Positions 4,970 through 24,750 of a stretch of DNA of 25,928 nucleotides are shown one piece after another. Position 1 is the stretch's first letter, and every line of letters begins with the position of its first letter. The stretch spans positions 1 through 25,928 of IMG/VR virus record IMGVR_UViG_3300025141_000647; one strand, given 5' to 3'. The translations under genes and the position numbers were made by a program. This DNA is from a virus. The notes beneath the pieces are model-generated. The model saw nothing but the letters and a program-made list of their open reading frames with translations. It made no database searches and was not told the DNA's origin.

Positions 4970-5428
4970 ATGAATCACATGAATTTAAGCGATGAACTTC
5001 GCGCACAGTTAATCGAGTCTGCCTCATGGGGCAAGGCTGGTATTACACCTCGCCTCGATGAAGAGGTCATTAACGAGAAGAAGAAGAAGACGAAGGACAC
5101 AGGCGCAAGCAAAGGCGACAAAGGTAAGGACAAGGATGACTCCGAAGCCACGGATTACGAGGATGGCGGCGACCGTAGAGGCGACCAATCCAAGACTAGA
5201 AAAGGCAGGAGGGATTACGAGAATTGTGAAGAGGAAACAGCACACGCTTGCCCCCTCTGCGCGTCAGAGCTTTCTGAAGCTATCGACGAAGAGCGCCTTC
5301 TTGAGCATTTAGATATTGTTGTCGGTCTTGTTGATCGTCTCTCACAACTCCAAGAGGGTGATGAGGACATTGATTCCGTTATTGATGAAACTATTGCCGA
5401 ACTTCTTCTTCAAAACGAAGAAGAGTAA
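4970..5428 (+). CDS. Small charged head-cluster protein with CxxC (possible prohead core or internal protein)
   Basis: 152 residues, ATG preceded by AGGA about 6 bases upstream. Residues 35-85 are a low-complexity Lys/Asp/Glu/Gly region. A compact C-x6-H-x-C-x2-C cluster follows near residues 86-97 and could bind zinc. The C-terminal third is acidic and helical with regular Leu/Ile spacing. The gene opens the run leading to the protease, scaffold and capsid genes. T4 has small core proteins (gp67, gp68) at the equivalent site, so a prohead core or internal protein role is inferred from position only. The 89-base gap upstream holds a weak 6-bp hairpin (4933-4948) and no convincing promoter. 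Confidence 0.6.
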   Translation: MNHMNLSDELRAQLIESASWGKAGITPRLDEEVINEKKKKTKDTGASKGDKGKDKDDSEATDYEDGGDRRGDQSKTRKGRRDYENCEEETAHACPLCASELSEAIDEERLLEHLDIVVGLVDRLSQLQEGDEDIDSVIDETIAELLLQNEEE

Positions 5429-5447: not shown

Positions 5448-5990
5448 ATGGATAATATTGGCGATTTTGCCGAGCAATTAGTTTTAGGAGAGGTAAGTAA
5501 TGTTCAAAATGGAAAAGCCTTACCCCCTTCGCAGCGCATTCAAGAAGGCTTGGCTCCTGCTGGGAAGGATATCCAACGAACTCAAGTGCCTGATTCTTTT
5601 ATGCAAGAGATCCTAGGAGATAAGTATGTTTCCAAGGCTCCTGTGATTGAAGAAGCCGAGATTCCTGAGCTTGTTTGGACTGATCCAGACGGACATGATC
5701 CCGAGCCTGAGCCACAATCATTAACCGAAGAGACCGCACAACAGCTTGTTCCTTTATTGGAAGAAGTTAAAGGTCTTCTTAAGGAGATGACTGCGGCTGT
5801 GACGGGCAGCGGAAACATTGGTATTAGCATAGCAGGACCCCAAAAGGATAGTGATTCTTGGGAAAGCATGGAAAAGCGTTATGGCTACAAGTCCACCAAG
5901 AAAGCAGACCTTCCTGGAGACTCCACTAAAAAAGCAGTTCTTAAGGCATCCATCAAGAATAGGCTCTCAAAACGAAATGAAACTGACTGA
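5448..5990 (+). CDS. Conserved-type hypothetical head-cluster protein
   Basis: 180 residues with a clear AAAGGAG ribosome site 9 bases before the ATG. The N-terminal half is Pro/Glu-rich and acidic. A central predicted helix (about 92-118, alternating Leu/Val with Glu/Lys) could oligomerise. The C-terminal 45 residues become Lys/Ser-rich and basic. It lies 19 bases after the preceding gene, and its stop is overlapped by the next gene's start, giving a tight operon. No enzymatic motif is visible. The location in the protease-scaffold-capsid run suggests a role in head assembly or as an internal component; this is inference. Confidence 0.6.
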   Translation: MDNIGDFAEQLVLGEVSNVQNGKALPPSQRIQEGLAPAGKDIQRTQVPDSFMQEILGDKYVSKAPVIEEAEIPELVWTDPDGHDPEPEPQSLTEETAQQLVPLLEEVKGLLKEMTAAVTGSGNIGISIAGPQKDSDSWESMEKRYGYKSTKKADLPGDSTKKAVLKASIKNRLSKRNETD

Positions 5991-6420
5991 CATTTTTCAA
6001 CATCTAGAGGAAAGAAAGACTGGTGATTCACCAGGACGGAAAGAGTACACTTCTGGAGGGAAAAAGAAAGAAAAAAAGAAAGCGTTTAAGGGGAGAGTGA
6101 AAACTTATGATAGCATTAAGGTTGCCTTAGCGTCAGGTTCGGTAGGACAAATTTTTAGTACAACTGCTGCGGGTAGACTTTATGTTATTTCAAAGGGTAA
6201 ATGGGGCTCAAAGAGTGGCCGAGGTAAAATCGCAAAAGGGTTCACCCCTGGCAGTTCTACCCCATCCTCAGACTTTGCCAGCGTAAAAAAGCATGCCGCT
6301 CGTACTTTATTGCGGCATGGAAAGGGATCACGGAAGCTGGCTGCTAAGTACGGTAGTAGATCTATTAAGAAAGCAAAAGGAATCGGTGGAGAGGATGGCC
6401 GAACGGACAAAGGAGAATAA
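5977..6420 (+). CDS. Small very basic protein, probable internal head protein
   Basis: 147 residues from ATG 5977, overlapping the end of the previous gene by 14 bases. The frame stays open upstream to 5851, but that stretch lies wholly inside the preceding gene and reads as an out-of-frame shadow, so the downstream ATG is preferred. No strong ribosome site precedes it, and translational coupling is likely. Composition is dominated by Lys, Arg, Gly and Ser (Lys-rich run at residues 30-40, basic C-terminus), giving a strongly positive protein with no recognised fold. Its 3' end contains the ribosome site of the protease gene. A DNA-binding or internal head role is inferred from charge and position. 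Confidence 0.55.
   Translation: MKLTDIFQHLEERKTGDSPGRKEYTSGGKKKEKKKAFKGRVKTYDSIKVALASGSVGQIFSTTAAGRLYVISKGKWGSKSGRGKIAKGFTPGSSTPSSDFASVKKHAARTLLRHGKGSRKLAAKYGSRSIKKAKGIGGEDGRTDKGE
6409..6415 (+). promoter_or_regulatory. Ribosome binding site fixing the start of the prohead protease gene
   Basis: AAAGGAG lies 6 bases before ATG 6422. The longer frame from 6293 overlaps the preceding gene and yields an N-terminus unlike the family, so this site decides the start. Confidence 0.8.
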
Positions 6421-6421
6421 A

Positions 6422-8494
6422 ATGCAATTATTACAAGACACATTTATTATTGAAAACTTACAAGTGCTTAGTGAAGGTAAGTCTAGTGACAAGATGAGGA
6501 TCAAAGGGGTCTTTGGGAGATGCAATGAGAAGAATAACAATGGGAGGATTTACCCTACTGCTGTTTTAGAATCACAACTTGCTAAAGTACAACCAATGAT
6601 CTCGGAAAGACGTTTGTGTGGTGAGCTTGATCACCCACAAAATGATACAGTTAAACTGTCGAATGCTTCTCACTTAATTACCAAGCTTGAAATGAAGGGC
6701 GATGAGCTTATTGGTGAAGCGGAGATTTTAAAGACTCCCGCTGGCTTAACTGCTGCTGCCCTAGTAAACGGTGGGGTTAAAATTGGAATTTCCTCTAGAG
6801 GAATGGGGACTTTATCTGAGAACGAGACTGGTGAGAAGGTTGTTAACGAAGATTTTCGTCTTGTAACTTTTGATCTTGTTGCTGACCCGTCAACCAGAGG
6901 TGCATATCCTGGCTTATCAGAATCTACTGAATCAAAGTACGCTAGAGAAACACAAGGGAAGCTTACCAAAGAAAGCAACTTTGTTACGATGCTTGAGTCT
7001 AAAATGAAAGAAGCTTATCAGCCTTGGATTGATGAGTCACGCTCGCCAAGAAGTCTGAGGCAAATAGCAACTCAAACTCAGCAGCAAGGTTCAAAATTGC
7101 GAAAGCCGAAGACTGCGGAAGAGCTTGCTACCGAGAAAGCTTTAGCGGGTGAGAGGAAGCAGCCACCAAAGCCAGCCACAACAAAAGAAGCTTTAGAATT
7201 AGTTAAAGCTGATGGTCACTGGCATAGAATTGCTGAAATGATTGTGGCTAGTTTAGTTGAAGACCTATCAACGCCTGGGCCATTAAAGCCAGGACAAACA
7301 GCAAAAGGAAGAAAGGCTCTTTGGGCCAGTCGAGCTTCTGGTGCTACTACAAAACCAAAAGGTGGACAACCAAAAGATGAAGACCCAAAAGATGAAGACC
7401 CAAAGGCTGGTGCTACTCAAAAAAAAGTAGATGAAGACAATTGGATTCAAGATGCTGAAAAAGATATTGAGAAGCGAGGCACTGAAGGAGTCTGCACGGG
7501 AGACAAATTCGGTGGTCCTACATGCCCTCCTGGGTCTAAAAGATATAATCTAGCTAAAACCTTTAAGAAGATGGGTAAAAAAAAAGTAGCTGAAGCCTTT
7601 GAGACTGAGACGGATCAAGAGAGATTAGAACGAGCTAAAGAAAAAATAACCCCTCAAGCTGTGGGAACGAAAGGACCTGGTTTCAGGGACCGTATGAGGA
7701 TCAAAGCAGGTAAGAGGGCAGAGGCACAGGGAGACGTTCAAGCTTCTCGAATTAGACGCAGAGGCGAGGCTGGAGGTAATGTTGGTTTAAGAGCTAAGTT
7801 AGGCTTAGGTGGAGCAGGGTCTGCACGGTACTCTCAGAAAAGCAGTGATCTTCTGAGAAAGAGAGCAGGGATCGCGCAGCCACCCGTGAAAAAACCTGGA
7901 GTCTTGGACAGACTTAGGGGGAGATTTGGAGCGAATCCAGAACCACCAGCCGCAGTGCCCAAACGTGACGATATACCTCAAGCAACACCTGGGCAGCAGG
8001 GTATGGTTCCTGGAACTCTGAGAGACAGAAGTAAAGTAAAGCCTAAAGGAAAGCCTAAGATGAGTGACGAGGATAAGTATAGTGCAAAGGTGGCAGGCAA
8101 GGAAGAGCTTAGACGAGCTACTGCGAACGTAAGAGCGGCAGCAAGATCAGATAGCGCAGGAAAGACAGGTGAGTTTGGATCGGGAGTAAAATCTCAAGAG
8201 GACAAGGATATTGCAGCTAAGGCTATTGCTAGACGAGAGCGTAAGAGTGGTAAAAAGGTTAACCTTACCCCTCAACAAAAACTAGACCTGGGTCACACAT
8301 CCTATAAGCAAATTGGTAACATGCTCGCTGAGATGATGCACCTGAAAGAAGATGAAGCTAAACCAAAAACCAGAAAGCTGAAGAGCGGAGAGTACGGAAG
8401 AAGGGGTTACGGTGGAGGACCACGTAAAAAGACTGCCCTTGTAACTCAAGACGAAACGCAAGACAAGAGGGAGCAGGGAAGTACCCGACCTTAA
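6422..8494 (+). CDS. 21: Prohead core protease (T4 gp21-like) with a ~500-residue basic C-terminal extension
   Basis: 690 residues. Residues 1-165 match the T4 gp21 type of serine protease that matures the prohead. Visible motifs are GELDHP (His71), GISSRG (Ser124/Ser125) and DLVADPSTRG (Asp151 or Asp155), the expected His, Ser and C-terminal block of the family. The scaffold and major capsid genes follow directly, as in T4. T4 gp21 is about 212 residues; here roughly 500 extra residues follow, rich in Lys/Arg/Ala/Gly/Pro, with a 15-bp tandem DNA repeat (7370-7404), a segment with two Cys (GVCTGDKFGGPTCPPG), and two short amphipathic helices of a type that recurs elsewhere in this cluster. 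The tail may be a scaffold/core domain or a DNA-binding internal protein released by self-cleavage. Protease identity is confident; the tail's role is speculative. Confidence 0.85.
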   Translation: MQLLQDTFIIENLQVLSEGKSSDKMRIKGVFGRCNEKNNNGRIYPTAVLESQLAKVQPMISERRLCGELDHPQNDTVKLSNASHLITKLEMKGDELIGEAEILKTPAGLTAAALVNGGVKIGISSRGMGTLSENETGEKVVNEDFRLVTFDLVADPSTRGAYPGLSESTESKYARETQGKLTKESNFVTMLESKMKEAYQPWIDESRSPRSLRQIATQTQQQGSKLRKPKTAEELATEKALAGERKQPPKPATTKEALELVKADGHWHRIAEMIVASLVEDLSTPGPLKPGQTAKGRKALWASRASGATTKPKGGQPKDEDPKDEDPKAGATQKKVDEDNWIQDAEKDIEKRGTEGVCTGDKFGGPTCPPGSKRYNLAKTFKKMGKKKVAEAFETETDQERLERAKEKITPQAVGTKGPGFRDRMRIKAGKRAEAQGDVQASRIRRRGEAGGNVGLRAKLGLGGAGSARYSQKSSDLLRKRAGIAQPPVKKPGVLDRLRGRFGANPEPPAAVPKRDDIPQATPGQQGMVPGTLRDRSKVKPKGKPKMSDEDKYSAKVAGKEELRRATANVRAAARSDSAGKTGEFGSGVKSQEDKDIAAKAIARRERKSGKKVNLTPQQKLDLGHTSYKQIGNMLAEMMHLKEDEAKPKTRKLKSGEYGRRGYGGGPRKKTALVTQDETQDKREQGSTRP
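7370..7404 (+). repeat. 15-bp tandem repeat in the protease gene extension
   Basis: Two full units of a CCAAAAGATGAAGAC-type 15-mer plus the start of a third, encoding KDEDP repeats. This is an in-frame low-complexity expansion in the C-terminal extension. Confidence 0.75.
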
Positions 8495-8541
8495 CACCTA
8501 CATTTTAAATAAAAAAGTAGATTTTATTACCTTCTGCTGTA

Positions 8542-8548
8542 CATATAG
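8542..8548 (+). promoter_or_regulatory. Possible late promoter-like element upstream of the scaffold gene
   Basis: CATATAG lies 22 bases before the scaffold ATG, followed by a leader with a TAGGAG ribosome site. The 76-base gap (8495-8570) also holds an imperfect A/T-rich hairpin. The call rests only on resemblance to the TATA elements farther right. Confidence 0.25.
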
Positions 8549-8570
8549 AAGAACCTAGGAGACTATTAAT

Positions 8571-9209
8571 ATGAGTAACTTAAAAAATATTGCCGAAATT
8601 CTTCCTGAGGGATTGGATGAATCAACGGTAGAGGCTATTTTTAGCCTCGTCGATTCCACTATCAATGATCAGGTGGATGAAAAAATTGGTCTTTTAGAGG
8701 CGAAAGTGAACGCCTATCTTCGCACGAAGATTGACCAACTTAAAGAACAAGCTCTTACTGAACTCTCGGAAGAGAACGAAGTGTATCGCAATGCGAGACT
8801 CTTTGAATCAGTAAGAACTTTAATGGCCTTAGAGCTTAATACTGACGATGAAGACAGTGCTCTTTCTGAAATGACGAACCAACATGGTGAGCTTCAGGAA
8901 GAGTTTGATGTTTTAACGGAGCAGGTGAATTCACTTGTTATCGAAAACGACAAACTTCAAAACACAGTTAAAGTTCTTGACAACAAAGTATCTATCACCG
9001 AACAAACGGTGGAAGAGCTTGAAGGTCACAAGTCGCAACTTCTGGAAGAAGTTGAGAATTTAGAAGCTTCCCAGGAAGAGGCATTCGCCTCATCTGAAAA
9101 AGCTGTTGTTATCTCCCGAGCAGATCAGGAGATTAACGAAGAAAGAACTTATGAGAATCAGTTCTTAACAGATGAGGTCATGAAATTCATGCCTTTCTCC
9201 CAATCTTAA
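8571..9209 (+). CDS. 22: Prohead scaffold/core protein (T4 gp22-like)
   Basis: 212 residues, strongly acidic and almost entirely helical with long coiled-coil stretches (about 40-85 and 100-170), as expected for the internal scaffold around which the capsid shell assembles and which gp21 degrades. The C-terminal segment (ENQFLTDEVMKFMP) is the type of conserved tail seen in gp22 homologues. The position between protease and major capsid genes is diagnostic. Many LxE and IxE tripeptides, the cleavage signature of T4 gp21, are scattered through it. TAGGAG lies about 10 bases before the ATG. It is somewhat shorter than T4 gp22. Confidence 0.85.
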   Translation: MSNLKNIAEILPEGLDESTVEAIFSLVDSTINDQVDEKIGLLEAKVNAYLRTKIDQLKEQALTELSEENEVYRNARLFESVRTLMALELNTDDEDSALSEMTNQHGELQEEFDVLTEQVNSLVIENDKLQNTVKVLDNKVSITEQTVEELEGHKSQLLEEVENLEASQEEAFASSEKAVVISRADQEINEERTYENQFLTDEVMKFMPFSQS

Positions 9210-9224
9210 TAGGATTATATAAAT

Positions 9225-10922
9225 ATGGAAATGATGCATCGCCAAGATGAAACGCTTGTCCAGAAGTGGGAGCCCGTGCTTGAAGGTATTGATAATGACT
9301 ATACCCGTCGAGTTACAGCGCAGCTTCTAGAAAACCAAGCAAAATCTATTGTTGAGGATCGCCTTTCTGAGGCCATTACCGCTGCTGCCACCACAACTGG
9401 TCAGCTTGGTACGTTTCAGAAGTTCGCCTTCCCTCTCGTTCGTCGGGTTTACCCGAAACTTTTAGCCAACAGCCTTGTTGGTGTTCAGCCCATGCAAGGG
9501 CCAGTCTCACAAGTCTTCTACCTCGGCAACAGCCGTGCGAAGGATGGTGGTGTTGGTGCTGGTAACAGGCAAACTGTCTTCAGTAAGTTCAACCTTACCT
9601 ATGCTGGTAATGTTGCTTCTGCTATTGGTTCTATTGATGACCAATATGCACCTGGAACCACTACACCTGGAGGTACTTTCCGTACAGACGCAGGAGAGGG
9701 CTCCAATTTCGGTCTTGATGGTGACAGTGCTCAAACAGGCTTCGACGTTTCTAACGTCCTTGCAACTCTGAGTGGAGCAGCGGAGCTTAACGGAGGTGTT
9801 AACCAAATTGTTGGTGCTGGTGCTGGTTCAGGTACGATGGGTGGTAGAATCGGCGCATGGCCGAATCCGAACTTCGTTGGAGGCTACAACCTTTCAGGTG
9901 GTGAGCGTCTAACTGGAACGGGCATCCCAGAGATGACCTTCCACATCGAGCAGGAAGCAGTCGTTGCTAACACTCGTAAGATGAGAGCACTTTGGACTCT
10001 TGAGGCTTCTCAAGACCTTAAGGCTTATCACAACCTTGACCTTGAGCGGGAGCTTACTGACCTTCTTTCGAAGGAGCTTCAACTTGAGATCGACCGTGAG
10101 CTTATCGAAGATCTCCGTATGATTGCATACGGTCTTCGTGACAAGAACCTCGGTGGTGTTGACCAGAATCTTATGGATGCTAGTTACATTAGCTTGGGTA
10201 GCCGAAGCGATGGTATCTTCCCTGGTCTTGATGGTAACTCTGCTGCAACAGGTGTTTTTGTTCCCGCTCAATTCACTTATGATTTCGATGGTGGACAAGG
10301 AACCTCAACTGCAACTTCTTTAGGTGCAGCTAAGACTGACTCAAACATCTTTGTCTGTGATTTCAGCACGACTGCTCTTGACCTTTATCCCCGTCACGTT
10401 GGCGAGGTATACGCAAACTTACTTGCGATTATTAACCTTGCTTCGCAGGACATTTACCGTACCACGATGCGTGGTCCTGGTAACTGGCTTCTGACCTCAC
10501 CCCTTGTTGCTTCTATGCTCGAAAGTGCTACTAAGCTTGAAGGAGGCATCCAGTCCCCTGATGGTCCCACCAACATTGGTAGGAACTCAATCGAGTATAA
10601 GGGTAAGTTTATGGGTCGCTACGACCTGTACGTTGATCCGATGTACCCGACTGATGAAATCATGATGGGCTACAAAGGTGCGAACGCAATGGATTCGGGT
10701 TATATTTATGCCCCGTACATTCCGCTGCAGCAGTTGCCGACCATTACGGATCCCGAGTCCTTCCAGCCTAGGAAAGGAATCTTGACTCGTTACGGTAAGG
10801 TGCAGATCGAACCGATGAACCGATTCTATAGAATCATTCGCCTCGTCGGTGCGACCAGCAACTTCCTCTTCCAGCCTTTCGCTAGAAACAACAGTGTCTT
10901 AGGTACGGATACTACTGCCTAA
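9225..10922 (+). CDS. 23: Major capsid protein precursor (T4 gp23-like)
   Basis: 565 residues (T4 gp23 is 521). A T4-type pattern is visible at about residues 70-105: basic VRRVYPKL, then LVGVQPMQGP and QVFYL. The C-terminal half contains the conserved helices and the final NRFYR and FLFQPFAR blocks. Gly/Ser/Thr-rich segments at about 125-215 are probably the variable insertion region. The likely gp21 processing site is after Glu49 in RLSE-AITAA, which fits (I/L)xE and the 65-residue propeptide of T4. The gene follows the scaffold gene by 15 bases, has AGGA about 10 bases before the ATG, and ends just before a strong terminator. A TATAAATA octamer overlaps its start codon (9218-9225). Confidence 0.93.
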   Translation: MEMMHRQDETLVQKWEPVLEGIDNDYTRRVTAQLLENQAKSIVEDRLSEAITAAATTTGQLGTFQKFAFPLVRRVYPKLLANSLVGVQPMQGPVSQVFYLGNSRAKDGGVGAGNRQTVFSKFNLTYAGNVASAIGSIDDQYAPGTTTPGGTFRTDAGEGSNFGLDGDSAQTGFDVSNVLATLSGAAELNGGVNQIVGAGAGSGTMGGRIGAWPNPNFVGGYNLSGGERLTGTGIPEMTFHIEQEAVVANTRKMRALWTLEASQDLKAYHNLDLERELTDLLSKELQLEIDRELIEDLRMIAYGLRDKNLGGVDQNLMDASYISLGSRSDGIFPGLDGNSAATGVFVPAQFTYDFDGGQGTSTATSLGAAKTDSNIFVCDFSTTALDLYPRHVGEVYANLLAIINLASQDIYRTTMRGPGNWLLTSPLVASMLESATKLEGGIQSPDGPTNIGRNSIEYKGKFMGRYDLYVDPMYPTDEIMMGYKGANAMDSGYIYAPYIPLQQLPTITDPESFQPRKGILTRYGKVQIEPMNRFYRIIRLVGATSNFLFQPFARNNSVLGTDTTA

Positions 10923-10945
10923 GTTAACTTAGAAAGTAAATAAAC

Positions 10946-10981
10946 AAGAGGGTCAGAGGAATTTTGTCCTCTGACCCTCTT
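10946..10981 (+). terminator. Strong hairpin terminator after the major capsid gene
   Basis: A perfect 15-bp stem (AAGAGGGTCAGAGGA, 10946-10960, pairing with 10967-10981) around a 6-base loop, followed by a pyrimidine-rich CTCTTTCC run. It begins 24 bases after the capsid stop codon and would end the abundant capsid transcript. Confidence 0.85.
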
Positions 10982-10988
10982 CTCTTTC

Positions 10989-10996
10989 CTATATAC
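10989..10996 (+). promoter_or_regulatory. Putative late promoter-like element restarting transcription after the terminator
   Basis: CTATATAC lies 12 bases before ATG 11009, directly after the terminator, followed by a short GAGGG ribosome site. It resembles the TATA-type elements at 18852, 22072, 23216 and 24736, with no recognisable -35 box. Confidence 0.4.
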
Positions 10997-11008
10997 ACTA
11001 GAGGGATT

Positions 11009-11215
11009 ATGTATAAATATAGAAGCAAATGTAGATGGAACATGCTTCTTCACATTGATGGGGAAGTAATAGAGATTAGACCTGGAGAGTTATTTGAGTC
11101 CTGTACTTTAGTAACCTCTCGTAACCTAGAAATTATAAGTAAGCCGCTACCAACGAAAAAGATAGGAAGACCTCCTAAAAAAACCACTAAGGAACAGATA
11201 AATGGTAAAGATTAA
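11009..11215 (+). CDS. Small protein with AT-hook-like basic tail
   Basis: 68 residues from ATG 11009 with GAGGG just upstream. A longer reading from TTG 10964 would start inside the terminator loop and is rejected. Residues 1-48 look like a small beta-rich domain with a central PGE turn. Residues 50-66 are basic and contain IGRPPKKTTK, similar to the GRP core of AT-hooks. The gene overlaps the next start by 14 bases, so it is coupled to the neck gene. The PGE-centred domain resembles the 58-residue protein at 15742 and the two may be paralogues. Function unknown. Confidence 0.6.
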   Translation: MYKYRSKCRWNMLLHIDGEVIEIRPGELFESCTLVTSRNLEIISKPLPTKKIGRPPKKTTKEQINGKD

Positions 11216-12071
11216 TCCTAGAATACTTAGCTATGGAGATAGCTTTGGACAGTATGGAGGGAATCAGCTAAGTGATACTAAGCTTTTCTCTACTGCTATT
11301 GATGGTTCCAAACTCAATGTTGGAACCCTAGGAGATCCTATTGAGCTTACTGAGTTTGAGAAAACAATTCACGATTTTATTCTTGCTCGCTTGGGGCATC
11401 CCGTTGTTCGGGTAGAGTTAACGAGCTTTCAAATAAAGACAGTAATTGATGAAGCCATCACTCAATTAGATTATCACGCTCCTTTCTGGTGTAATCAAAT
11501 TGCTGCCTTTGAATGCCAAGCAGGAGCAAACCAATATGTTCTCCCTCTACAGATAGCAAATAACTTATCTTATGTAGCTTATAAAAAATCTTTACTTAGC
11601 ATCCAGAATATGGCAGGCAGTTTGGAGTTTGATTTCTTTATCAAATACTTCCAAGACAACTTCCTATTCAGTAACTTTAATATATCAGATTTTTATCTCA
11701 TGCAGCAACACCTAGAGACAATGAGGAAGGTGTTAAGCCAAGACGGTTCTTGGGATCTTCTTAATGGGAATGTCCTTCAGTTGTATCCTGTGCCTGTTAC
11801 AAATGGACAGCCTGTTATTTTGGTTTACAGAGGATTAGACACGGCTACAATGCATCCCTATTATAAAAATTGGATTCAAAGATATGCTGTTGCGTGTGCT
11901 AAAGGAATTTTGGGTGAGGTTAGAGGAAAGTATGGAACACTGCCATCCCCTGGAGGAGGCGCAGTATTAAACGGAACTGCTTTGTTGCAGTCAAGTGAGT
12001 TGGAAAAGGATAAGCTAAAGGAAGAGCTTCTCTCAGAAATTGAAGAACCACCAGTGTTCACCATGTTTTAA
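11202..12071 (+). CDS. 13: Neck / head-completion protein (T4 gp13-like)
   Basis: 289 residues, close to the 309 of T4 gp13, which with gp14 forms the neck joining head and tail. Visible are an N-terminal helix-rich part with the family-like LARLGHPVVRVELT and IDEAITQLDYH segments, then a beta-rich middle ending NVLQLYPVPV, then a helical C-terminus with a short EEPPVFTMF tail. Position fits: after the capsid gene and before the gp14-like and gp15-like genes. It overlaps the preceding small gene by 14 bases. Assignment rests on pattern and context without an alignment, so gp13 is likely but not certain. Confidence 0.65.
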   Translation: MVKINPRILSYGDSFGQYGGNQLSDTKLFSTAIDGSKLNVGTLGDPIELTEFEKTIHDFILARLGHPVVRVELTSFQIKTVIDEAITQLDYHAPFWCNQIAAFECQAGANQYVLPLQIANNLSYVAYKKSLLSIQNMAGSLEFDFFIKYFQDNFLFSNFNISDFYLMQQHLETMRKVLSQDGSWDLLNGNVLQLYPVPVTNGQPVILVYRGLDTATMHPYYKNWIQRYAVACAKGILGEVRGKYGTLPSPGGGAVLNGTALLQSSELEKDKLKEELLSEIEEPPVFTMF

Positions 12072-12073
12072 TT

Positions 12074-13657
12074 ATGCCAAAAGGAACAAGAGTTAGTCGA
12101 TGTGTTGATAAAGTAAAGAGGTCCAAGGATGAAGGTGCAGCTATCGCTATCTGCCAATCTTCTACTAATCAAGGGTATGCTTCGGGTAAGAAGCTTAAGG
12201 AAGCTATTGCCTCTAAGGTCGTAAAACCAGGACCAGGAAAACCCGCTAAGAAACTTAAAGATTCTCAAGATGATTGTTGGGAGAAAGAAGAGAAAAGAGA
12301 AGGATATAGAACTCCTAAAGCAGATGATACGAGAGGGTATGACTCACCTACTGATGACAATGCTTCTGATGATTTTAAGCATGGTAGGTGGATGAAAGAA
12401 GATCCTCCCAAGAAGTATAAAAAGAAACTTAAAGAGTCTCTTAGAAGTCTTGTCGAAAGACAAGCTCCCAAGCGAGTGCGTGGGGCAGAGGGTGGTGATT
12501 ATGTAACTAAGGGTAAGACAGGCACTAGTACTACCATAGGTGGTGGAAGACTTAATTTAACTGGCGTTAAATCAAAGCAGGCAGAGCTACTTAAAAAGCA
12601 CACTTCTGGGCCTAAAGGAAGACTTCCTGAAGCTCAAAGCTTTAGTCAGACTCAAATGGACGCTCAGAAAAAGGCTTTGAAGCCTTTAAACCCCAAGCCT
12701 AGGAGAGCTAAGAAGCTTTCTCTTACTGCGGGTGGAAATAAAACAACTGGTGCAAATGCAGCAGGTGACGAGGGAGTTCCTGTTGGCAATGACGCTAACA
12801 AGAAGTCTCAAGAGTTACAGCAACAAGGTGATCAGGATCACGCAATGTACGAAAAGGATATTAAAACTATGGATAAACAATGGAACAAAGAAAGAATTGA
12901 TGAAGTTCTTCCTGCAATCGCAGCAGCACTCAGGACAGCGGCTACTACTTTTGGACGAGGCGCGACTAAGGCTGCAGAAACCCTAACTAAAAAGGCTGTA
13001 GAGGCTGGCGGAAGGGCTGCAAAAGGCGCAGCTAAGAAGGGAGCTAAGAAGGCAGTAAAACGTACCCTATCAACAGCAAAAGAAAGGCTTTCGCCTGAGG
13101 ATGAAACTATGGAAGACAACACACGATATGCTAACGCTTATGTTAGAAAATTAATGGAAGCCACGGGTGGACCAAACACCGCTCCAGTTTCTGATGAGGA
13201 TAGAAAGGCAACAGCGAGGTTTGCTGCTTATGGTCGAGGTGGTCCTCACGATACAAGCAAATCAAATGAGCCTAAGAGAAGCCCTTCAGGTTCAAAGAGA
13301 TCAAAAAAAACAAAGGCAGCAGATGACGCAGCAGGGGTTGTTGTATCTCACACAGAGTACCACAGAATTGGAAGAATCCTTTATGAAGTTGCAGGTCGAA
13401 AACTTTCTCCAGTTCAGAAAAAATATAAGGGCACTTCAGCTTCGGAAGTAGCCTCTAGCAAAACAGTTGATACGGAAGTTCAGGCAGATGTAAGTGATGA
13501 AGCGGCACGGACTCAGGCTAAAGTTCCTGGGGCGAACCCTGATGCTGGACACCTTCTTGCACAGAAGAAGGCGCGAGACGCTGGAAAGAGGCCGACAGGA
13601 AGAGGTCACGGCACCTCTAAGTCAGGACTCGGAGCCACAACACCCAGAAAAACCTGA
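12074..13657 (+). CDS. Basic low-complexity protein, probable internal head / processed protein
   Basis: 527 residues, starting 2 bases after the gp13-like stop with no clear ribosome site. The N-terminus (PKGTRVSRCVDKVK, then EGAAIAICQSST and YASGK) is a small conserved module seen in many phage proteins. The rest is dominated by Lys/Arg/Ala/Gly/Ser, including a highly Ala/Lys-rich stretch at about residues 285-335. Two segments stand out: YVRKLMEA (residues 356-363), matching the Y-x3-(I/L)-x-E-A pattern of T4 internal-protein capsid-targeting sequences, and TEYHRIGRILYEVAG (about 427-441), nearly the same as a helix in the protease extension. A packaged, protease-processed internal protein is my inference; no enzymatic domain is seen. 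Confidence 0.6.
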   Translation: MPKGTRVSRCVDKVKRSKDEGAAIAICQSSTNQGYASGKKLKEAIASKVVKPGPGKPAKKLKDSQDDCWEKEEKREGYRTPKADDTRGYDSPTDDNASDDFKHGRWMKEDPPKKYKKKLKESLRSLVERQAPKRVRGAEGGDYVTKGKTGTSTTIGGGRLNLTGVKSKQAELLKKHTSGPKGRLPEAQSFSQTQMDAQKKALKPLNPKPRRAKKLSLTAGGNKTTGANAAGDEGVPVGNDANKKSQELQQQGDQDHAMYEKDIKTMDKQWNKERIDEVLPAIAAALRTAATTFGRGATKAAETLTKKAVEAGGRAAKGAAKKGAKKAVKRTLSTAKERLSPEDETMEDNTRYANAYVRKLMEATGGPNTAPVSDEDRKATARFAAYGRGGPHDTSKSNEPKRSPSGSKRSKKTKAADDAAGVVVSHTEYHRIGRILYEVAGRKLSPVQKKYKGTSASEVASSKTVDTEVQADVSDEAARTQAKVPGANPDAGHLLAQKKARDAGKRPTGRGHGTSKSGLGATTPRKT

Positions 13658-13672
13658 GCCAGGAATAATTAA

Positions 13673-14251
13673 TTGAACCGAAAGAACTACAAGGTATCCA
13701 CAGAACTACCTGAGCTACCCGATCTGGATGGCGAGGATAGCATTCTAAGCTTATTTGATCAGACCAATCCTGATATAAATATGTTTAATTTGGTGGATGA
13801 CGAGATGATCCGTCTAGCAGGATCAAAAATGTTCTTTTATAAGTACTATCAGACAGAAGATTTTGATCCTGTGTACATGGAAGCTAGAGATAAACCTGTT
13901 GCTAAAGCACCTATTATTGTTCATGGTCATTATGATCCTATTTCGATGAGTGAAGAGCTTACTCAATTTGGTCTTGAGCTAACAAACGATCAGTTGTTTA
14001 CGTTTAATAAAAGCTACATTGAGAGGAAATTACATCGTTCTGTAATTCCTGGAGACGTTATTAAGCCCCAGTTCCAGAACCAAATGTATGAGATCTTTGA
14101 GGTTGTTGAGGATGGCTTTGAGGCATACGGTGTATACCACCTAGTTTGCTCTGCAAGGCTTCTTCGTGATGCGCCTGATGTCCAAGACACTCCTCTTACG
14201 GAAGTGAGTGAAGAGCTTGGTGGGTACGCTGGAGCGAAAGATGCTTTCTAG
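13673..14251 (+). CDS. 14: Neck / head-closure protein (T4 gp14-like), TTG start
   Basis: 192 residues. The start is TTG 13673 with AGGAAT about 7 bases upstream; no in-frame ATG gives a complete domain. The sequence follows a pattern I associate with head-closure/neck proteins: an N-terminal GSKMFFYKYY block, then DPVYMEA, a QFGLELTNDQ segment, IPGDVIKPQ and YEIFEVVEDGFEAYG. T4 gp14 is 256 residues, so this is a compact version. It sits between the gp13-like and gp15-like genes, as in T4 apart from the inserted basic protein gene. Its 3' end overlaps the next gene by 11 bases. It is probably part of the neck; gp14 is the best guess. Confidence 0.6.
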   Translation: MNRKNYKVSTELPELPDLDGEDSILSLFDQTNPDINMFNLVDDEMIRLAGSKMFFYKYYQTEDFDPVYMEARDKPVAKAPIIVHGHYDPISMSEELTQFGLELTNDQLFTFNKSYIERKLHRSVIPGDVIKPQFQNQMYEIFEVVEDGFEAYGVYHLVCSARLLRDAPDVQDTPLTEVSEELGGYAGAKDAF

Positions 14252-15422
14252 TATAGGACATTGGCAGAGTTATCAAGGTCTAATGACTCCAACCTCTGAT
14301 GGTTGGATCGCCTTAAATAGTAATTATACTACTGATACTGATCACAACGGTAATCCTATTACAGCGGTTTCAGGAATGGTTGTTACTGTTAAAGATATAT
14401 CAGGTATTTCTTGGTACAATCATCTAGCAAACATTAAAAAAGGTGATCAAGTCCGTGTAACAATTGCTGCATCAGCTACGGTAGACGCAAACTTATCCTG
14501 GCAAGTAGGCTTATCTGGAAACCCTACTTATTACGGAGATGGAGCATACCCTTATTTTCATTTTCCCGTTTCCTCAGCAGGTTTAACCGCAGTCACTCGC
14601 AATGGAAATTATGCGGGAGAGTATGGGTGGACCGCTGGTGGGAGTATTATTACTCTAGAAGGCCCCCCGTGGTCAGCAGGGGGAAGTTCACCAAATGTTT
14701 CTTTTACCACTACTGGGCTTGACGTTAATTGGAATGCAGCGTCTTACCCTAGCCAGAGTCGAAGCTATCCTACCCGAGAAGGTTGGATTCGTAAAGAGAT
14801 CTATAGGTTAACACAGGCTCAGAATACTATATCCCATGTGTACAAGGATTCTCTTCGGGGAATGATAGCCTCCTTCAATGATGTTGGTTACATCAACTCA
14901 GAAGAAAAGTTTGTAGGGATACAATGTATTCATGCAAACGCGGAACGAGCGGTTGCTAAGTTGAAACAAGAAAACAATATCATCCTTCCAATCCTATCTA
15001 TTTCCCAAACTACTTCGGATAATGATGATGAGCGTAGAAGGAACGAGAGTGTTCTCATTAATGAGAAGTGGTGGGACGCTGACAAGGAAAGAGCTTACAG
15101 AGTATTGAGTTTAGCCCCTCGTCCTGTGAATGTAAATTACCAACTAAACATTTGGTGTAAGTACATGGCTGATATGGACCAAATCTTAGAGCAGGTTAGA
15201 CTGAAATTTAATCCTGAGATGCAGGTTCCTACTAAGTTTTCTACTCTAGCTAAATCATTCATTTTTTCTGAAGATGATGTCACTCCTGTTACAGCCTCGG
15301 ACAAAGAGGATAGGGTTCTTAAGAAGAGTCTAAGCCTTATACTCAGAACTTATATTCCTAGTCCTAAGTTCCTTATTACTTCTACAGGAAAAATAACTCA
15401 ATTCAAAGTGGAGACTTCCTGA
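14241..15422 (+). CDS. 15: Tail terminator / sheath stabiliser (T4 gp15-like) with extra N-terminal beta domain
   Basis: 393 residues from ATG 14241, with GGAG 6 bases before it. A longer GTG start at 14208 lies within the previous gene and lacks such a site. Residues about 175-393 match T4 gp15 in layout: KFVGIQCIHAN corresponds to gp15 KFIRVPITYAS, ILPILSIS to ILPRINLH, and RVLSLAPRPVNVNYQLNIW to the gp15 SPIKMIYELSIF region, followed by MDQILEQVRLKFNPEM. gp15 caps the tail tube and sheath and joins the neck. Residues 1-170 are not in T4 gp15: a Gly/Ser/Thr/Trp-rich, beta-like domain that could project from the tail top or bind sugars. The next gene overlaps by one base (TGATG). Confidence 0.75.
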   Translation: MLSSIGHWQSYQGLMTPTSDGWIALNSNYTTDTDHNGNPITAVSGMVVTVKDISGISWYNHLANIKKGDQVRVTIAASATVDANLSWQVGLSGNPTYYGDGAYPYFHFPVSSAGLTAVTRNGNYAGEYGWTAGGSIITLEGPPWSAGGSSPNVSFTTTGLDVNWNAASYPSQSRSYPTREGWIRKEIYRLTQAQNTISHVYKDSLRGMIASFNDVGYINSEEKFVGIQCIHANAERAVAKLKQENNIILPILSISQTTSDNDDERRRNESVLINEKWWDADKERAYRVLSLAPRPVNVNYQLNIWCKYMADMDQILEQVRLKFNPEMQVPTKFSTLAKSFIFSEDDVTPVTASDKEDRVLKKSLSLILRTYIPSPKFLITSTGKITQFKVETS

Positions 15423-18863: not shown

Positions 18864-21542
18864 ATGGACTACTTCTCTGAACTGCTGGATAGTTACGACA
18901 AACTTAAGAAAAGAACCTTTAAGCTGAGGTATATCTCAGAGGCCGATGACAAGGATAATAAGAAGAAGTCGGATAAAAAAGAAGAAGACTCTGAGGACAA
19001 GCTCTCGGTTAATCAGGAGCAACAATCTGACGGTGCTTCATTGGCTCAATCCTTTATGACTACCCACCTGGCTGAGATTCAGAAAGGTACTAACGCTAAA
19101 AAAATTACTCTTAAAACAGGGATAGGTGTGCCTATTCAATTTTATATGGGGCCACCCTCGAAATCGGATGCTGTTCCTGCTAAGACACAGACAACGCGAG
19201 TCGCTCCTGAAGATTTTGCGGCGAAGCCCTCTGTTGATGGAGGTGATGATCCTCAGGAAGTTGAAAAAGCAGAACCCCTCAAAGTAATCAAAGCTCAATC
19301 TGGTAACTTCAACGGAGAAGTGGGCATAATTAATGGAACATCGGTCAGTATTTCTCCCGCGCTTCAAGCAAATCCAAAAAGATTTCAACTATTCGTAGGT
19401 AAATTTGTTGCGGACGCTGATACAGGGGGTGAAGATGCTGCAAATAAAGCGATTGGCGCTGCTGATGCTTTGGACGCTGACAAAGCAGCAGAGGAAGAGG
19501 CTAAAAGAATAGCCGCGCTTAGAGAGATTGGAGGGTTCTTTAAACAAGAGGGTGTTGAAAATCCTGAGGCTCTTCGGGCTATGATGGCATCCAAAAAAAT
19601 GGTAGATGATTTTTGTATAGCAAATGACTCTGTTGAAACTCTAAAGAGATTTTGTAAAAGATCCTGGTCTTACTTCGCTGCGGGTGAGGGAAGTATGGGG
19701 TTAGAGTACAAACTAGCTACGGCTACTACTGTTAGGGTTATTGATGAGGACGGAACAACCAAACCTGGGGGTAAGGCGAATGCTGCTCTTGTCGCTGAAG
19801 CAGCCAGGTCTGCCGCATTTCTTACGGGGTTTCTGGATAATGCCACTGATTTTAAATGTAGTATAGTAAAGCAACGCATTGGAATGTTCCAAGGTAGCAA
19901 GCTTCTTCTTTATGGGAATGACACAACTGAAGGTATCGTAATTGGAAAGCCTAATGCCATGCACAAACTAGCCCTTAAAAAGATTGCTGCTTCTAAAGAG
20001 GATGGGGGCTGTGGTATCAGTACGGAGGATTTATCTCAACTAAGTCCCGAGGTGGAACAAGATGAGAAAGCTATGAATGCAATTAAAGGAACTTTCTATG
20101 AATCAATCATGGCTTTTTCCACAAGACTTTTAATAGCTCAAGGAAACCAGAAGAAGATGGACGAGGCGCGGGATCTACTATTAGCTACTGTCAAGAAAAA
20201 TAAGAAGATACTTAAGAAAATTATGGAACGTGTGGATAATAATGCGGGGGAAAGCATCGAATTGGCACACGAACTTAGTGTGCAGAGAGACCTGCTAGAA
20301 AGTATGGCAGATCCTGGGGCATTTTTTGAGGGGGTCATGCGAGAAATTGATTCTGTCCAACCTTTTATTGAATTTATGTCTCCTCCAAAAGGTGCAGGTT
20401 TCGGGGTGATAGAAGGGGGAAAGGTAAGCAAGACAGGTCAACGAGCAGACCTAGTGTTTACATATACTGATCCAAAAGTAGCCCGAGCAAAGGCGAAAGC
20501 AATTGGATCCTCAGTGAGTAAGAAACAACCAGACGGAACCTATCATGTTCCTATTGGTTTGAAAAGATTGGCAAAACTTAAAGGTACTAAGTTTGGAGAG
20601 ATTAATAATCAGACCAGAATGACAAATCTACTTACGGGGGATCTTATTGTAGATGAGAACATCGAGCCAGGGTTCGCTCAGTCAATGCAGACTAGACAGT
20701 ACGGTGGTCCGAGTACGCCTAGAGAGGAAAGACAACAGGAATATGCCAGAAACCTAGAGGCTGAGATCTCTGCTGCAACTAGCCAATTATTAGAGGACAA
20801 GACTTACATTGATGGGGAAGGGAAGATAAAAAGTCAAACTCCCGAAGGAGTTCTAAAGCAACTTGCAAAGAAAGTTACTTCTATGCTATCGTTTGAGGAT
20901 CAATCCCATGCCATAATCAGTAAGGCTTTCTTTACTATCAACGAGAACGGGGAGAACGTACTGAAGGAGTTCAAAGGGGATGGGAGTAATGCCTTCTCCA
21001 ATAGAGAATATGCAAGGGAAGGAGTGTCTCGATGTGCAAGATATAACATGCTTAAAAATGATTCCGAAGGTGTCCCAAGAAGTGAAGACGATACTCCTGA
21101 GGATATTGAACAGAGACAGATGGCAGCACAGGATTACATGATTAAGTCTGCACTTATTTGTGGATCGAATGCTAATAATCTGGCACAAGTAATTGTAACA
21201 GACTCTGGGGAGATGCTGGACATCAAACACAATGAGCTTTTCGATAAGATTTGTAACGCACAAAACGATCCCGATTCTGATGAGCCTACGTTTAAGTTCA
21301 AGGCAGGAGGAGCTTCTGTAACTATCTGCGTTGATGGATTATGTCTTTCTGTAGGACAAGAGGGCAATGATGCTGCTGGTGATACAAGAGACACCAGAAC
21401 TTCGACGTTTATATCCAAAAGAACATTAGAAGACCCCAGAATCCAAGGTGATATTCCGCAGGTAGCTAGACCTCAAAACAACTCTAGCTTTGAAGAGTAC
21501 GTTAAAGGTCACATCCAACTACTAGAAACTTTTCTTAGTTAA
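18864..21542 (+). CDS. Large hypothetical protein, possibly virion-associated
   Basis: 892 residues that I do not recognise. Residues 1-25 (FSELLDSYDKLKKRTFKLRY) form an amphipathic basic helix, followed by a Lys/Asp/Glu low-complexity linker to about residue 60. The long central part is mixed alpha/beta with scattered cysteines and no visible catalytic signature. Residues 410-500 are helical. The C-terminal end (FEEYVKGHIQLLETFLS) is a short helix containing LLE, similar to other helices in this cluster. The gene starts right after the tail-tube terminator with its own TATA element and ends overlapping a minus-strand gene by 8 bases. An internal virion or DNA-ejection protein is possible, but nothing proves it. 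Confidence 0.6.
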   Translation: MDYFSELLDSYDKLKKRTFKLRYISEADDKDNKKKSDKKEEDSEDKLSVNQEQQSDGASLAQSFMTTHLAEIQKGTNAKKITLKTGIGVPIQFYMGPPSKSDAVPAKTQTTRVAPEDFAAKPSVDGGDDPQEVEKAEPLKVIKAQSGNFNGEVGIINGTSVSISPALQANPKRFQLFVGKFVADADTGGEDAANKAIGAADALDADKAAEEEAKRIAALREIGGFFKQEGVENPEALRAMMASKKMVDDFCIANDSVETLKRFCKRSWSYFAAGEGSMGLEYKLATATTVRVIDEDGTTKPGGKANAALVAEAARSAAFLTGFLDNATDFKCSIVKQRIGMFQGSKLLLYGNDTTEGIVIGKPNAMHKLALKKIAASKEDGGCGISTEDLSQLSPEVEQDEKAMNAIKGTFYESIMAFSTRLLIAQGNQKKMDEARDLLLATVKKNKKILKKIMERVDNNAGESIELAHELSVQRDLLESMADPGAFFEGVMREIDSVQPFIEFMSPPKGAGFGVIEGGKVSKTGQRADLVFTYTDPKVARAKAKAIGSSVSKKQPDGTYHVPIGLKRLAKLKGTKFGEINNQTRMTNLLTGDLIVDENIEPGFAQSMQTRQYGGPSTPREERQQEYARNLEAEISAATSQLLEDKTYIDGEGKIKSQTPEGVLKQLAKKVTSMLSFEDQSHAIISKAFFTINENGENVLKEFKGDGSNAFSNREYAREGVSRCARYNMLKNDSEGVPRSEDDTPEDIEQRQMAAQDYMIKSALICGSNANNLAQVIVTDSGEMLDIKHNELFDKICNAQNDPDSDEPTFKFKAGGASVTICVDGLCLSVGQEGNDAAGDTRDTRTSTFISKRTLEDPRIQGDIPQVARPQNNSSFEEYVKGHIQLLETFLS

Positions 21543-23226: not shown

Positions 23227-24264
23227 ATGTTTGAGTTAGATAATTTATATTCTGGTCACAAGACACACGGGGACAACCCCTTATGCTCTGGATGCACGAT
23301 TCTAAAGAAGAGCAAGGTGTGCCATTCCTTCATGGATTATGAGGAGCTAGATGAGTCTCCCGTTTTGTTTCTTTCAGACACCTTAAAGGACAGGCCCAAT
23401 AGCTTACTTCCGTTCACCCAGCAAGACATGAGGCTACTAAAGTCCTCGTATCCTGAGGCTTTTGCGTGTGCTGCGTCTGTGAAGTGCCCTTCTGTTAAAG
23501 AGGCAGACATGACACCTGACAATATGAAACTGTGCAGGGTCCATCTGGAAGCAACCATCGACAAAGTAAAGCCTAAGTTAGTCTTCCCTTGTGGGAATTT
23601 AGCAATGAAGATGCTCATTAAGAAGAGCGGCATCACACATAAACGAGGAAAATCCTATGAATTCACCACTCCTAATGGGCACTCTTGCATCGTTGTTCCT
23701 ATCCTTCATCCTTATTTTGTGGTTAAAGAGCCTAGACATAAATACTTATTCCAAACGGATGTCAGAAATGCGTATGAAAAATACATACTTGGCAAAACGC
23801 ACGAAGGAAAGTTCTCATACGAAACACTAATGAAGGTAGAGGATGTGGTGTCTTTAGGGAAAGAGCTAGAGCACAGTTCTGATACTCTTGCACTGGACAT
23901 TGAGACTACTGGACTCAACTTTAGAACCGATGACATTCAAACGATAGCAATCTCCTCTCAGGATAAGAACTGGGTCATTCCTTTGGACCATAAGGATAGC
24001 CCCTTTCGACAAGGCGCAGAAGACCAAGACCCTGATAATTATGGTAAGGTGTGGTCCAGCCTAAAGAAGATTCTAGAGAACCCCAAGAGCAAGAAAGTTT
24101 TCCACAACGCTAAGTTTGACCTTAAGTTCTTAATCAATTACGGAATCTACACTCAGAACGTATGGGATACCAAGGTCATGCACCACTTCATTGATGAGAA
24201 CCTTCCTAAGAGCTTGATGGATCTGGTTAAGCTTTACTTTCCGACCGAGCTTGAGAGTCTTTAA
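23227..24264 (+). CDS. Family A DNA polymerase, fragment 1: UDG-like Fe-S domain plus 3'-5' exonuclease (motifs I and II)
   Basis: 345 residues. Residues 15-185 look like a family 4-type uracil-DNA glycosylase domain: Cys20-x2-Cys23, then VKC (Cys87) and KLC (Cys103), four cysteines in the order and spacing (x2 then, after about 63 residues, x15) of the [4Fe-4S] ligands of family 4 enzymes, followed by a VKPKLVFPCGNLA strand and ILHPYF (His161-Pro162). The usual GEAPG active-site loop is not recognisable; LFLSDTLKD stands there. Residues 218-340 are a DEDD exonuclease with motif I LDIETTGL (Asp224, Glu226) and motif II FHNAKFD (Asp298). The frame stops just before motif III, which begins the next fragment 486 bases downstream. 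It appears to be a natural break caused by the inserted minus-strand gene. Confidence 0.85.
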   Translation: MFELDNLYSGHKTHGDNPLCSGCTILKKSKVCHSFMDYEELDESPVLFLSDTLKDRPNSLLPFTQQDMRLLKSSYPEAFACAASVKCPSVKEADMTPDNMKLCRVHLEATIDKVKPKLVFPCGNLAMKMLIKKSGITHKRGKSYEFTTPNGHSCIVVPILHPYFVVKEPRHKYLFQTDVRNAYEKYILGKTHEGKFSYETLMKVEDVVSLGKELEHSSDTLALDIETTGLNFRTDDIQTIAISSQDKNWVIPLDHKDSPFRQGAEDQDPDNYGKVWSSLKKILENPKSKKVFHNAKFDLKFLINYGIYTQNVWDTKVMHHFIDENLPKSLMDLVKLYFPTELESL

Positions 24265-24727
24265 GTGCTTCTTCTAGAGCAACAATCCTACTCTCATTAT
24301 GCTTCATAATTACATCCTGTTCATCGTCCCTTGCATCAATATCTGCTTGGGATACGGTGTTATGGATCTGACCAAATTTCTTAAACCAGTTCCGACCGTT
24401 CTTTCTGAAGAGGGGAAGGAACACAAAGAGGATTAACCACCAGTAGCCTAGCGTCTTAATTAATCCACCTGTCTCATGCAGCGTAGATGCCGTAGAGCCT
24501 TGAACTGGTCCTCCCGCCATTACTTGTCCTGCAATAGCAGTAGGGCTTGCAGAGGGGAAGATCATTTCTGTGACCACTACTCCCCCTGCTGCCCCTGCTG
24601 CGACCGCTGCTGGCTCTGGGATGAAGGCTGCGGTCAACCCACCACCCAAAGCTCCACCAACAGCGTGTTTGATTGTGCCACAACTGGACAGCGCGATTAA
24701 CATCAGTATGCAAATAAATATTCTCAT
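24227..24727 (-). CDS. Small lipoprotein with one membrane segment, inserted in the polymerase gene
   Basis: 166 residues on the minus strand, with AGGAG about 7 bases before the ATG. Residues 1-16 form a lipoprotein signal ending in a lipobox (LSSC, Cys16). Residues 20-80 are very Gly/Ala-rich. A hydrophobic segment at about 93-107 (TLGYWWLILFVFLPLF) is followed by basic residues and a charged, helical C-terminus (about 125-166). N-terminal lipid plus a downstream membrane helix is the layout of unimolecular spanins, the phage proteins that fuse inner and outer membranes at lysis, though the long charged tail is unusual. Other envelope roles are possible. The 3' end runs 38 bases into polymerase fragment 1, and it diverges from fragment 2. 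Confidence 0.65.
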   Translation of the reverse strand: MRIFICILMLIALSSCGTIKHAVGGALGGGLTAAFIPEPAAVAAGAAGGVVVTEMIFPSASPTAIAGQVMAGGPVQGSTASTLHETGGLIKTLGYWWLILFVFLPLFRKNGRNWFKKFGQIHNTVSQADIDARDDEQDVIMKHNESRIVALEEALKDSQARSESKA

Positions 24728-24735
24728 GATTACTC

Positions 24736-24748
24736 CTATTATATATAG
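24736..24748. promoter_or_regulatory. Bidirectional late promoter-like element between the lipoprotein gene and polymerase fragment 2
   Basis: CTATTATATATAG, a near-palindrome, ends 2 bases before ATG 24751; a TATATA hexamer (24740-24745) lies 5 bases from it, with no ribosome site. On the other strand TATAAT precedes AGGAG and the lipoprotein ATG. It is the third divergent spacer with the same kind of element. Confidence 0.5.
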
Positions 24749-24750
24749 CC

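Follow-up and report, generated by a model that had tools for sequence, protein, structure and literature searches.

Head gene cluster of the window

We analysed the IMG/VR virus record IMGVR_UViG_3300025141_000647, a stretch of 25,928 bases from a T4-like phage genome (here called the window). Our subject is a short motif, with a Tyr and a Glu at fixed spacing, that recurs in the long basic tail of the gp21-type prohead protease and in a basic protein encoded further along the head genes. These genes stand in the order gp21-gp22-gp23, gp23 being recognised by PF07068 and the gp22 place being filled by a coiled-coil protein. The sheath stabiliser-like gene is followed by genes for a PAAR-like protein, the tail sheath and the tail tube.

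6422-8494, plus strand: prohead protease of the gp21 type whose C-terminal tail is long and basic; 690 amino acids from the MQLL start (PF03420, E 1.6e-23; phrog_207, E 1.3e-51)
8571-9209: coiled-coil protein occupying the gp22 place; no match to a gp22 family in Pfam or PHROGs
9225-10922: gp23 major capsid protein (PF07068)
11202-12071: Ad2-like connector (phrog_211)
12074-13657, plus strand: basic, mostly disordered protein of 527 amino acids, a candidate internal head protein (isoelectric point (pI) 9.96, 21% Lys plus Arg)
14208-15422: sheath stabiliser-like protein

We gathered 50 related loci (given below by L numbers) by a scan for the gp21 domain; these records are fragments. Gene classes were set by homology to the window genes (E 1e-5) plus position, and the term slot denotes the gene position of the window 12074 protein, between the Ad2-like gene and gene 13673. 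Isolates match gp23 at about 29% identity at best, so the searched collection contains no cultured phage close to this lineage.

The protease belongs to the T4-type gp21 family (PF03420, Peptidase_S77, 83.7 bits against a cut-off of 27), and its MQLL start was chosen from an alignment of homologues. An AlphaFold2 model of its first 230 amino acids matches T4 gp21 (5jbl; Foldseek E 3e-12). H71 and S124/S125, which we take to be the catalytic residues, are invariant in 31 gp21 sequences. The protease domains of the relatives are 69-94% identical to that of the window in the best segment, and their gp21 open reading frames (ORFs) encode 250-849 amino acids, excluding L036 (cut by the contig end) and L048 (broken). 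In L048 the gp21 frame is split into several ORFs, by sequencing error or decay. The 38 tails longer than 40 amino acids have a median pI of 10.19 and 24% Lys plus Arg, against 5.85 and 13% for their protease cores. Calcium loops resembling those of EF-hands or dockerins were seen in four of ten tails scanned (L037, L046, L015 and L034), all below the Pfam cut-offs.

A motif shared by the protease tail and the slot protein

The first-pass annotation of the window had assigned four peptides to one family of packaging and cleavage tags: GHWHRIAEMIVASLVE and HTSYKQIGNMLAE in the protease, and YVRKLMEA and HTEYHRIGRILYE in the 12074 protein. All four are real and in frame in their named genes, three of them at the positions it gave and HTSYKQIGNMLAE at 8294-8332, one base later. 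HTSYKQIGNMLAE and HTEYHRIGRILYE, described as nearly the same, have 7 of 13 residues in common, which proves nothing from the window alone: a best 13-mer match of at least 7 arose in 821 of 1000 shuffles of the two sequences, and we rejected similarity within the window as proof. The relatives, on the other hand, lift this likeness far above chance. The peptides fall into three motif types (class B, or long Tyr form; the Trp form; and class A), and a single motif for all four was rejected. Positions are counted below from the Tyr, or the residue in its place, as +n.

7016-7039, plus strand: YQPWIDES, with Tyr, aromatic +3, Ile +4 and Glu +6, where gp21 conservation ends in the alignment
7214-7261, plus strand: GHWHRIAEMIVASLVE, Trp form, without Glu at the homologous position; 20 distinct copies in gp21 tails
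8291-8347, plus strand: GHTSYKQIGNMLAEMMHLK, class B in the protease tail (43.6 bits, leave-one-locus-out profile)
13139-13162, plus strand: YVRKLMEA, class A, the best conserved element of the 12074 protein family
13349-13387, plus strand: HTEYHRIGRILYE, class B in the 12074 protein (40.1 bits, leave-one-locus-out profile)

Class B has the consensus T-x-Y-x-[QR]-[ILM]-G-x-x-[LIM]-A-E-[AMS]-[LMF]-G-[LHY]; a stricter version of the 19-residue motif is [HSW]-T-x-Y-x-[QR]-I-G-x-x-L-A-E-A-[LM]-G-[LH]. It was scored with a custom 19-column profile, each locus without itself and without near-identical seeds; as the seeds come from the same genes as those tested, this is a partial cure only. Across 651 gene-like, non-identical ORFs the profile matched 74 places at 10 bits or more; reversed proteins gave none, and shuffled sets gave 2.0 each. 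The motif was found at this level in 25 of 41 gp21, 26 of 44 slot genes and 7 of 20 ORFs just after gp21, counts that are not probabilities, since related sequences are each counted once and are not independent. Nine of the 20 post-gp21 ORFs, two of the seven motif-positive ones among them, come from the single record L048, and some of these are pieces of the gp21 tail because the frame is broken there. No copy at this level was found in 448 other ORFs with a window homologue or in the remaining 98 ORFs of the same loci; a homologue of gene 5448 gave one weak match (7.6 bits, below the threshold). The first-pass annotation had asked whether the motif is equally common in non-head proteins. Run on these loci, the comparison did not refute the annotated family: outside gp21, the genes next to it and the 12074 slot, the count is 0 of 546 ORFs.

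We also examined the spacing independently of the profile. In gp21 tails, 36 of 53 [ILM][AS]E tripeptides have a Tyr or Trp exactly nine residues before their Glu; slot proteins have 24 of 34, and post-gp21 ORFs all 8. Elsewhere the figure is 8 of 394 for ORFs that have a window homologue and 3 of 23 for the remainder. The distances from Tyr, Trp or Phe to Glu in gp21 tails peak at +6 (36) and +9 (41), with 1 to 18 at other distances. Copies picked on their left half alone (Y..hG, where h is hydrophobic) have Glu at +9 in 55 of 62 distinct copies. In other genes, a wider left half, [YWF]..h[GA], is followed by Glu at +9 in 38 of 464 cases, and by a hydrophobic +7 plus the Glu in 12 of 464. Copies are N-terminal in short ORFs of L023, L025, L031 and L048 (for example, MNNTYKHLGLLIAEALNLI), those of the window lie inside their proteins or close to the C-terminus, and the internal placement described by the annotation holds for long proteins. 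The linkers around the motif are basic, mostly unalignable and of low complexity.

The Trp form is an early motif of the protease tail. GHWHRIAEMIVASLVE is a related form, as annotated, in which Ala stands at the homologous +9 and Glu follows four residues further on. The hydrophobic-x-Glu ending claimed for all peptides satisfies the L/I-x-E rule of gp21 in the motif, with the homologous Glu often missing in the Trp form, while the +7 hydrophobic residue is kept in 20 of 20 distinct Trp copies. YVRKLMEA is conserved and has the T4 spacing of Tyr, Leu and Glu that had been claimed for it, without the hydrophobic +3; it is a separate, shorter motif. Among 11 aligned slot proteins, Y356 and L360 are invariant and N354 and E362 nearly so, and the nearly invariant columns are the start Met and class A alone. 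Class A-like helices open some short slot proteins, as MKYINKLLKE (L012), MKYIKKLLSE (L017) and MKYLDKLFEE (L051), and are internal in long ones.

YQPWIDES, overlooked by the annotation, has the exact T4 spacing and lies at the end of the conserved part of the protease, which closes with EAYxP[FW][IL]xE (window 7013-7036). A T4-spaced Y...[ILMFV].E occurs at this end in 34 of 41 non-redundant gp21. In the model of the first 230 gp21 residues (31 sequences, mean pLDDT (predicted local distance difference test) 73), the protease domain is followed by a long helix that contains YQPWIDES; the model is silent on whether gp21 cuts there.

In the phage collection the whole 12074 protein had no match as a query, and in Pfam and PHROGs it had no named domain above the cut-off. 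In its AlphaFold2 model 312 of 527 residues are below pLDDT 50; helices at 355-364 and 426-441 cover both motifs, with low confidence there, so they were not used as proof. Slot ORFs over 80 amino acids in the relatives measure 100-552 amino acids, the longest being cut by the contig end, and for 8 of 10 slot proteins a Pfam search (E up to 0.01) matched nothing. Of the two L038 slot proteins (L038:15588-16172 and L038:15052-15588), one matches DUF6321 and the other, below threshold, DUF6496; the L038 slot proteins also match several PHROGs of unknown function. Slot and post-gp21 proteins together have a median pI of 10.19 (n=64), versus 4.95 for other ORFs with a window homologue (n=393). By its pI and the slot alignment, the 12074 protein is a basic, fast-evolving protein that keeps just its tag, as expected of an internal head protein.

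Module exchange between tail and slot proteins

When gp21 tails were compared by blastp with slot and post-gp21 proteins, two parts of the window protease tail matched slot proteins of relatives.

7436-7585, plus strand: block of 50 amino acids of the tail; a stretch of the L003 12074-slot protein shares 90% identity with it
8369-8488, plus strand: C-terminal 40 amino acids of the tail; a stretch of the L049 slot protein shares 65% identity with them

These matches indicate that blocks move between the protease tail and the slot proteins. The tail and the free slot proteins share a parts list, and this fits what would be expected if both are loaded into the head. The exchange of blocks (50 amino acids at 90% identity) and the low-complexity linkers would also be explained if repetitive disordered modules spread by recombination without any head function, the motif being a remnant of shared ancestry. 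We regard this explanation as very improbable, as the motif is conserved amid unalignable flanks and its spacing stays fixed across genes at several locations. Furthermore, identical residues in copies from the same record share a codon in 157 of 328 cases, with 127 expected; synonymous codon use is near random, so the copies are not recent duplicates, and a repeat at the DNA level was rejected.

Occurrence in whole records and collections

Searches of 29 complete records gave 57 matches at E up to 1, in 22 records. A script assigned 26 of these to gp21, 17 to slot genes and 6 to post-gp21 ORFs; two further matches were assigned by hand to small slot or post-gp21 ORFs, and the remaining six lie in small ORFs elsewhere. 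Two of the six are in L082, and the others are in ORFs of L083-L085 that open with tag-like helices such as MDKYERIGESVWNTYKTMGILVAEG and sit between two parts of the DNA polymerase gene. The DNA polymerase gene of the window (23227-25230) is also in pieces, with a minus-strand ORF having a lipoprotein-like start (24227-24727) between them. The exact DNA pattern of the motif matched 34 stretches in a viral collection of 2.9 million contigs, of which 31 belong to this lineage (13 already among the records analysed); the matches in L092, L104 and L109, without a window homologue, look like chance. According to these record and collection searches, the motif is, as far as searched, confined to one phage lineage and few gene places. 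Among isolated phages, a 23-residue motif query matched none, which is weak evidence as so short a query has little power. A literature search, in a library with few subscription papers and no bioRxiv preprints, turned up no description of a motif of this kind or of extended tails on gp21.

Proposed role of the motif

The motif, its restriction to particular genes, its spacing, its conservation at the protein level within unalignable linkers and the module exchange are observed. We lean towards the interpretation that these are docking or targeting helices with built-in gp21 cleavage sites, namely a lengthened T4 capsid targeting sequence (CTS) used as a capsid-core docking and processing tag. 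The motif would be a short amphipathic helix whose first half, T-x-Y-x-x-I-G, would dock on the prohead core or scaffold through its Tyr/+3/Gly face. The second half, L-A-E followed mostly by Ala, Met or Ser, would be the gp21 cleavage site. The basic unstructured carriers (the protease tail, the products of small ORFs that follow it, and the 12074-slot protein) would be built into the prohead core. When the head matures, cleavage by gp21 would fall after the Glu residues of the motif; the basic pieces would stay in the head with the DNA or be removed. The binding partner, the packaging, the cleavage and the role that the basic pieces would play are inferences. The first-pass annotation is supported in part: the modular family, its confinement, its placement and its T4-residue spacing hold up, and the one-motif reading does not.

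This interpretation draws on T4, for which we rely on the sections consulted of a head review (PMC9026906). There, the first ten residues of IPIII suffice for incorporation; targeting depends mainly on CTS residues 4 and 7 and processing on residues 8 and 10, and Asp at position 10 stops processing and not targeting. In the L011 slot protein of the present lineage, the motif Glu is replaced by Asp (HTEYHQIGLVMADAMGLN). T4 IPII and IPIII start MKTYQEFIAE, in which Tyr4 and Phe7 correspond to the Tyr and +3, and Ile8-Ala9-Glu10 to +4 to +6. For this reason, the Tyr and +3 of class B match the T4 targeting residues, and its L-A-E corresponds to the T4 I-A-E with the processing residues, three residues further on. 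Class B resembles the T4 CTS in having this Tyr and a hydrophobic +3 (as does the Y.P[FW] end of gp21), followed by hydrophobic-x-Glu, and in marking, as a short conserved tag, basic proteins that otherwise diverge; in some short ORFs the tag is N-terminal. It differs in that hydrophobic-x-Glu stands at +7/+9 and not at +4/+6; the latter spacing is found in YQPWIDES and YVRKLMEA, although class A lacks the +3 hydrophobic residue. Other differences from the T4 CTS are the several copies in some lineage proteins, the ridge past the Glu and the presence of the motif in the protease itself.

The main rival is a helix that docks without cleavage, its ridge packing on a partner helix (gp22, gp23 or another copy) and its Glu serving as a contact or capping residue; we consider it rather unlikely. 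Positions +4, +8 and +12 favour small residues (G, A, G): of 55 Tyr-form copies that have the Glu, 47 have Ala at +8 and 29 have Gly at +12, while the Gly at +4 follows from how the copies were chosen. This G-x-x-x-A-x-x-x-G pattern suggests a helix that packs tightly on another helix, and docking alone would account for the small residues at +8 and +12, for the conservation beyond the Glu and for the Trp forms that often lose the Glu and keep the left half. It accounts less well for the Glu at +9 in 55 of 62 copies chosen without regard to Glu, or for the fact that this Glu stands, in the protease and its genetic neighbours, in the L-x-E form cut by gp21; the consulted sections of PMC9026906 give L/I-x-E as the site after which T4 gp21 cuts.

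Cleavage sites carrying no targeting information, at which gp21 cuts core proteins into peptides that leave the head, are a less likely explanation, and we think it improbable. The L-A-E-A sequence obeys the gp21 rule, and several copies in one protein, as in gp21 of L010, L017, L019 and L051, would mean multiple cuts, as described for T4 core proteins in the same sections (PMC9026906). On the other hand, T4 gp21 needs just the short L/I-x-E, which the conserved Tyr nine residues and the Gly five residues upstream exceed, and in Trp forms the upstream part persists where the Glu is gone. Neutral spread of modules, discussed above, is likewise less likely than docking alone.

Several observations weigh against docking helices with built-in cleavage sites. 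In 16 of 41 gp21 no copy scores more than 10 bits, and the control ORFs all come from near gp21. Six whole records (G016-G019, G028 and G029) of the branch L037-L046 are without a match at E up to 1, where gp21 of L038, in the same branch, has a weak copy of 13.5 bits; the whole record of L002 (G026), close to the window, also has no match at E up to 1. In the Trp form the Glu at +9 is kept in 11 of 20 copies and missing in 9, with the left half kept, and conservation past the Glu (Ala or Met, Leu or Met, Gly, Leu or His) goes beyond what a bare cleavage site needs. T4 tags are N-terminal, whereas those of this lineage are often internal or near the C-terminus. Finally, class B is not the T4 CTS itself, because three residues (G-x-x) are inserted.

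The protease offers a further comparison. T4, Ah1 and phi-pp2 (L086, L125 and L123) have gp21 of the same family with LAE[AT][ML]K near the C-terminus, which is missing in gp21 of four cyanophages and three other isolates (ten read). This sequence may be an ancestral form of the L-A-E-A half; homology is not claimed, as the Tyr spacing differs, that C-terminal Glu standing at +5 from the Tyr in T4 and the motif Glu at +9 in the lineage. In gp21 of the three phages, LAE[AT][ML]K is a possible C-terminal processing motif. The gp21 of the ten isolates have 209-244 amino acids, compared with 250-849 in the lineage, where the basic tail shares blocks with other proteins. Desulfovibrio phage 7757 (L127) has an ORF of 583 amino acids over the gp21 match, of which the last 60 residues were read. 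A bolder idea, which we hold only tentatively, is that the protease carries its own cargo: the basic tail, of as many as about 630 residues, would be in effect a fused internal head protein, held in the core by repeated targeting helices, released when the protease cleaves itself at those helices, and trading modules with free internal-protein genes.

Other systems show partial likeness. The giant phages SPN3US and phiKZ have long head-protein propeptides, several Glu-ending cleavage motifs and a C-terminally processed protease; the consulted sections of PMC5694885 and PMC9026906 describe no helix repeated between protease tail and cargo, and the phiKZ motif is S/A-x-E. In P1 DarB a short N-terminal stretch is sufficient to bring a reporter into the head, according to the consulted part of PMC9024508; that stretch differs in being N-terminal and without a consensus among Dar proteins, and no sequence likeness is claimed.

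Other candidate head proteins

Three further features of the window may be processed in the head.

5977-6420, plus strand: conserved gene with a propeptide-like N-terminal end (MKLTDIFQHLEER; in relatives, for example, MKLTETIDYLNEAR), N-termini compared by eye
9363-9371, plus strand: LSE in the gp23 N-terminus, a predicted gp21 site (LSE|A), identified by eye against T4 gp23 FLTE|A
18864-21542, plus strand: protein of 892 amino acids with a conserved N-terminal block ending YISEA (5 homologues)

T4 gp23 is cleaved after the Glu of FLTE|A, and window gp23 has L-S-E-A where T4 has L-T-E-A. The 5977-6420 protein begins MKLT in the window. The 18864 gene lies after the tail tube gene, and its protein has the N-terminus MDYFSELL.SY.KLKKRTFKL.YISEA and a very divergent body: the first 30 alignment columns have 81% mean identity among five homologues, and later 30-column blocks 2-48%. 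It is possibly a large internal protein processed like T4 Alt, which is processed at both ends according to the consulted sections of PMC5694885 and PMC9026906. The ends of the 5977-6420 and 18864 genes look like propeptides, which suggests a wider set of tags. Before gp21, the gene 4970-5428 encodes a protein that is variable except for a conserved CPLC motif, which reads HACPLCASEL in the window.

Implications

Whether the propeptides of gp21 itself act as targeting sequences is presented as an unsettled question in the consulted sections of the review on the T4 head (PMC9026906). In the present phages, tag-like helices occur several times over in the protease of an entire lineage and mark neighbouring proteins as well, in dozens of natural variants, some of them without Glu. 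With Glu-less and other natural variants at hand, targeting is therefore separable from processing, and both can be tested. The motif also provides a handle for finding internal, possibly injected, proteins of uncultured T4-like phages that are otherwise without recognisable relatives.

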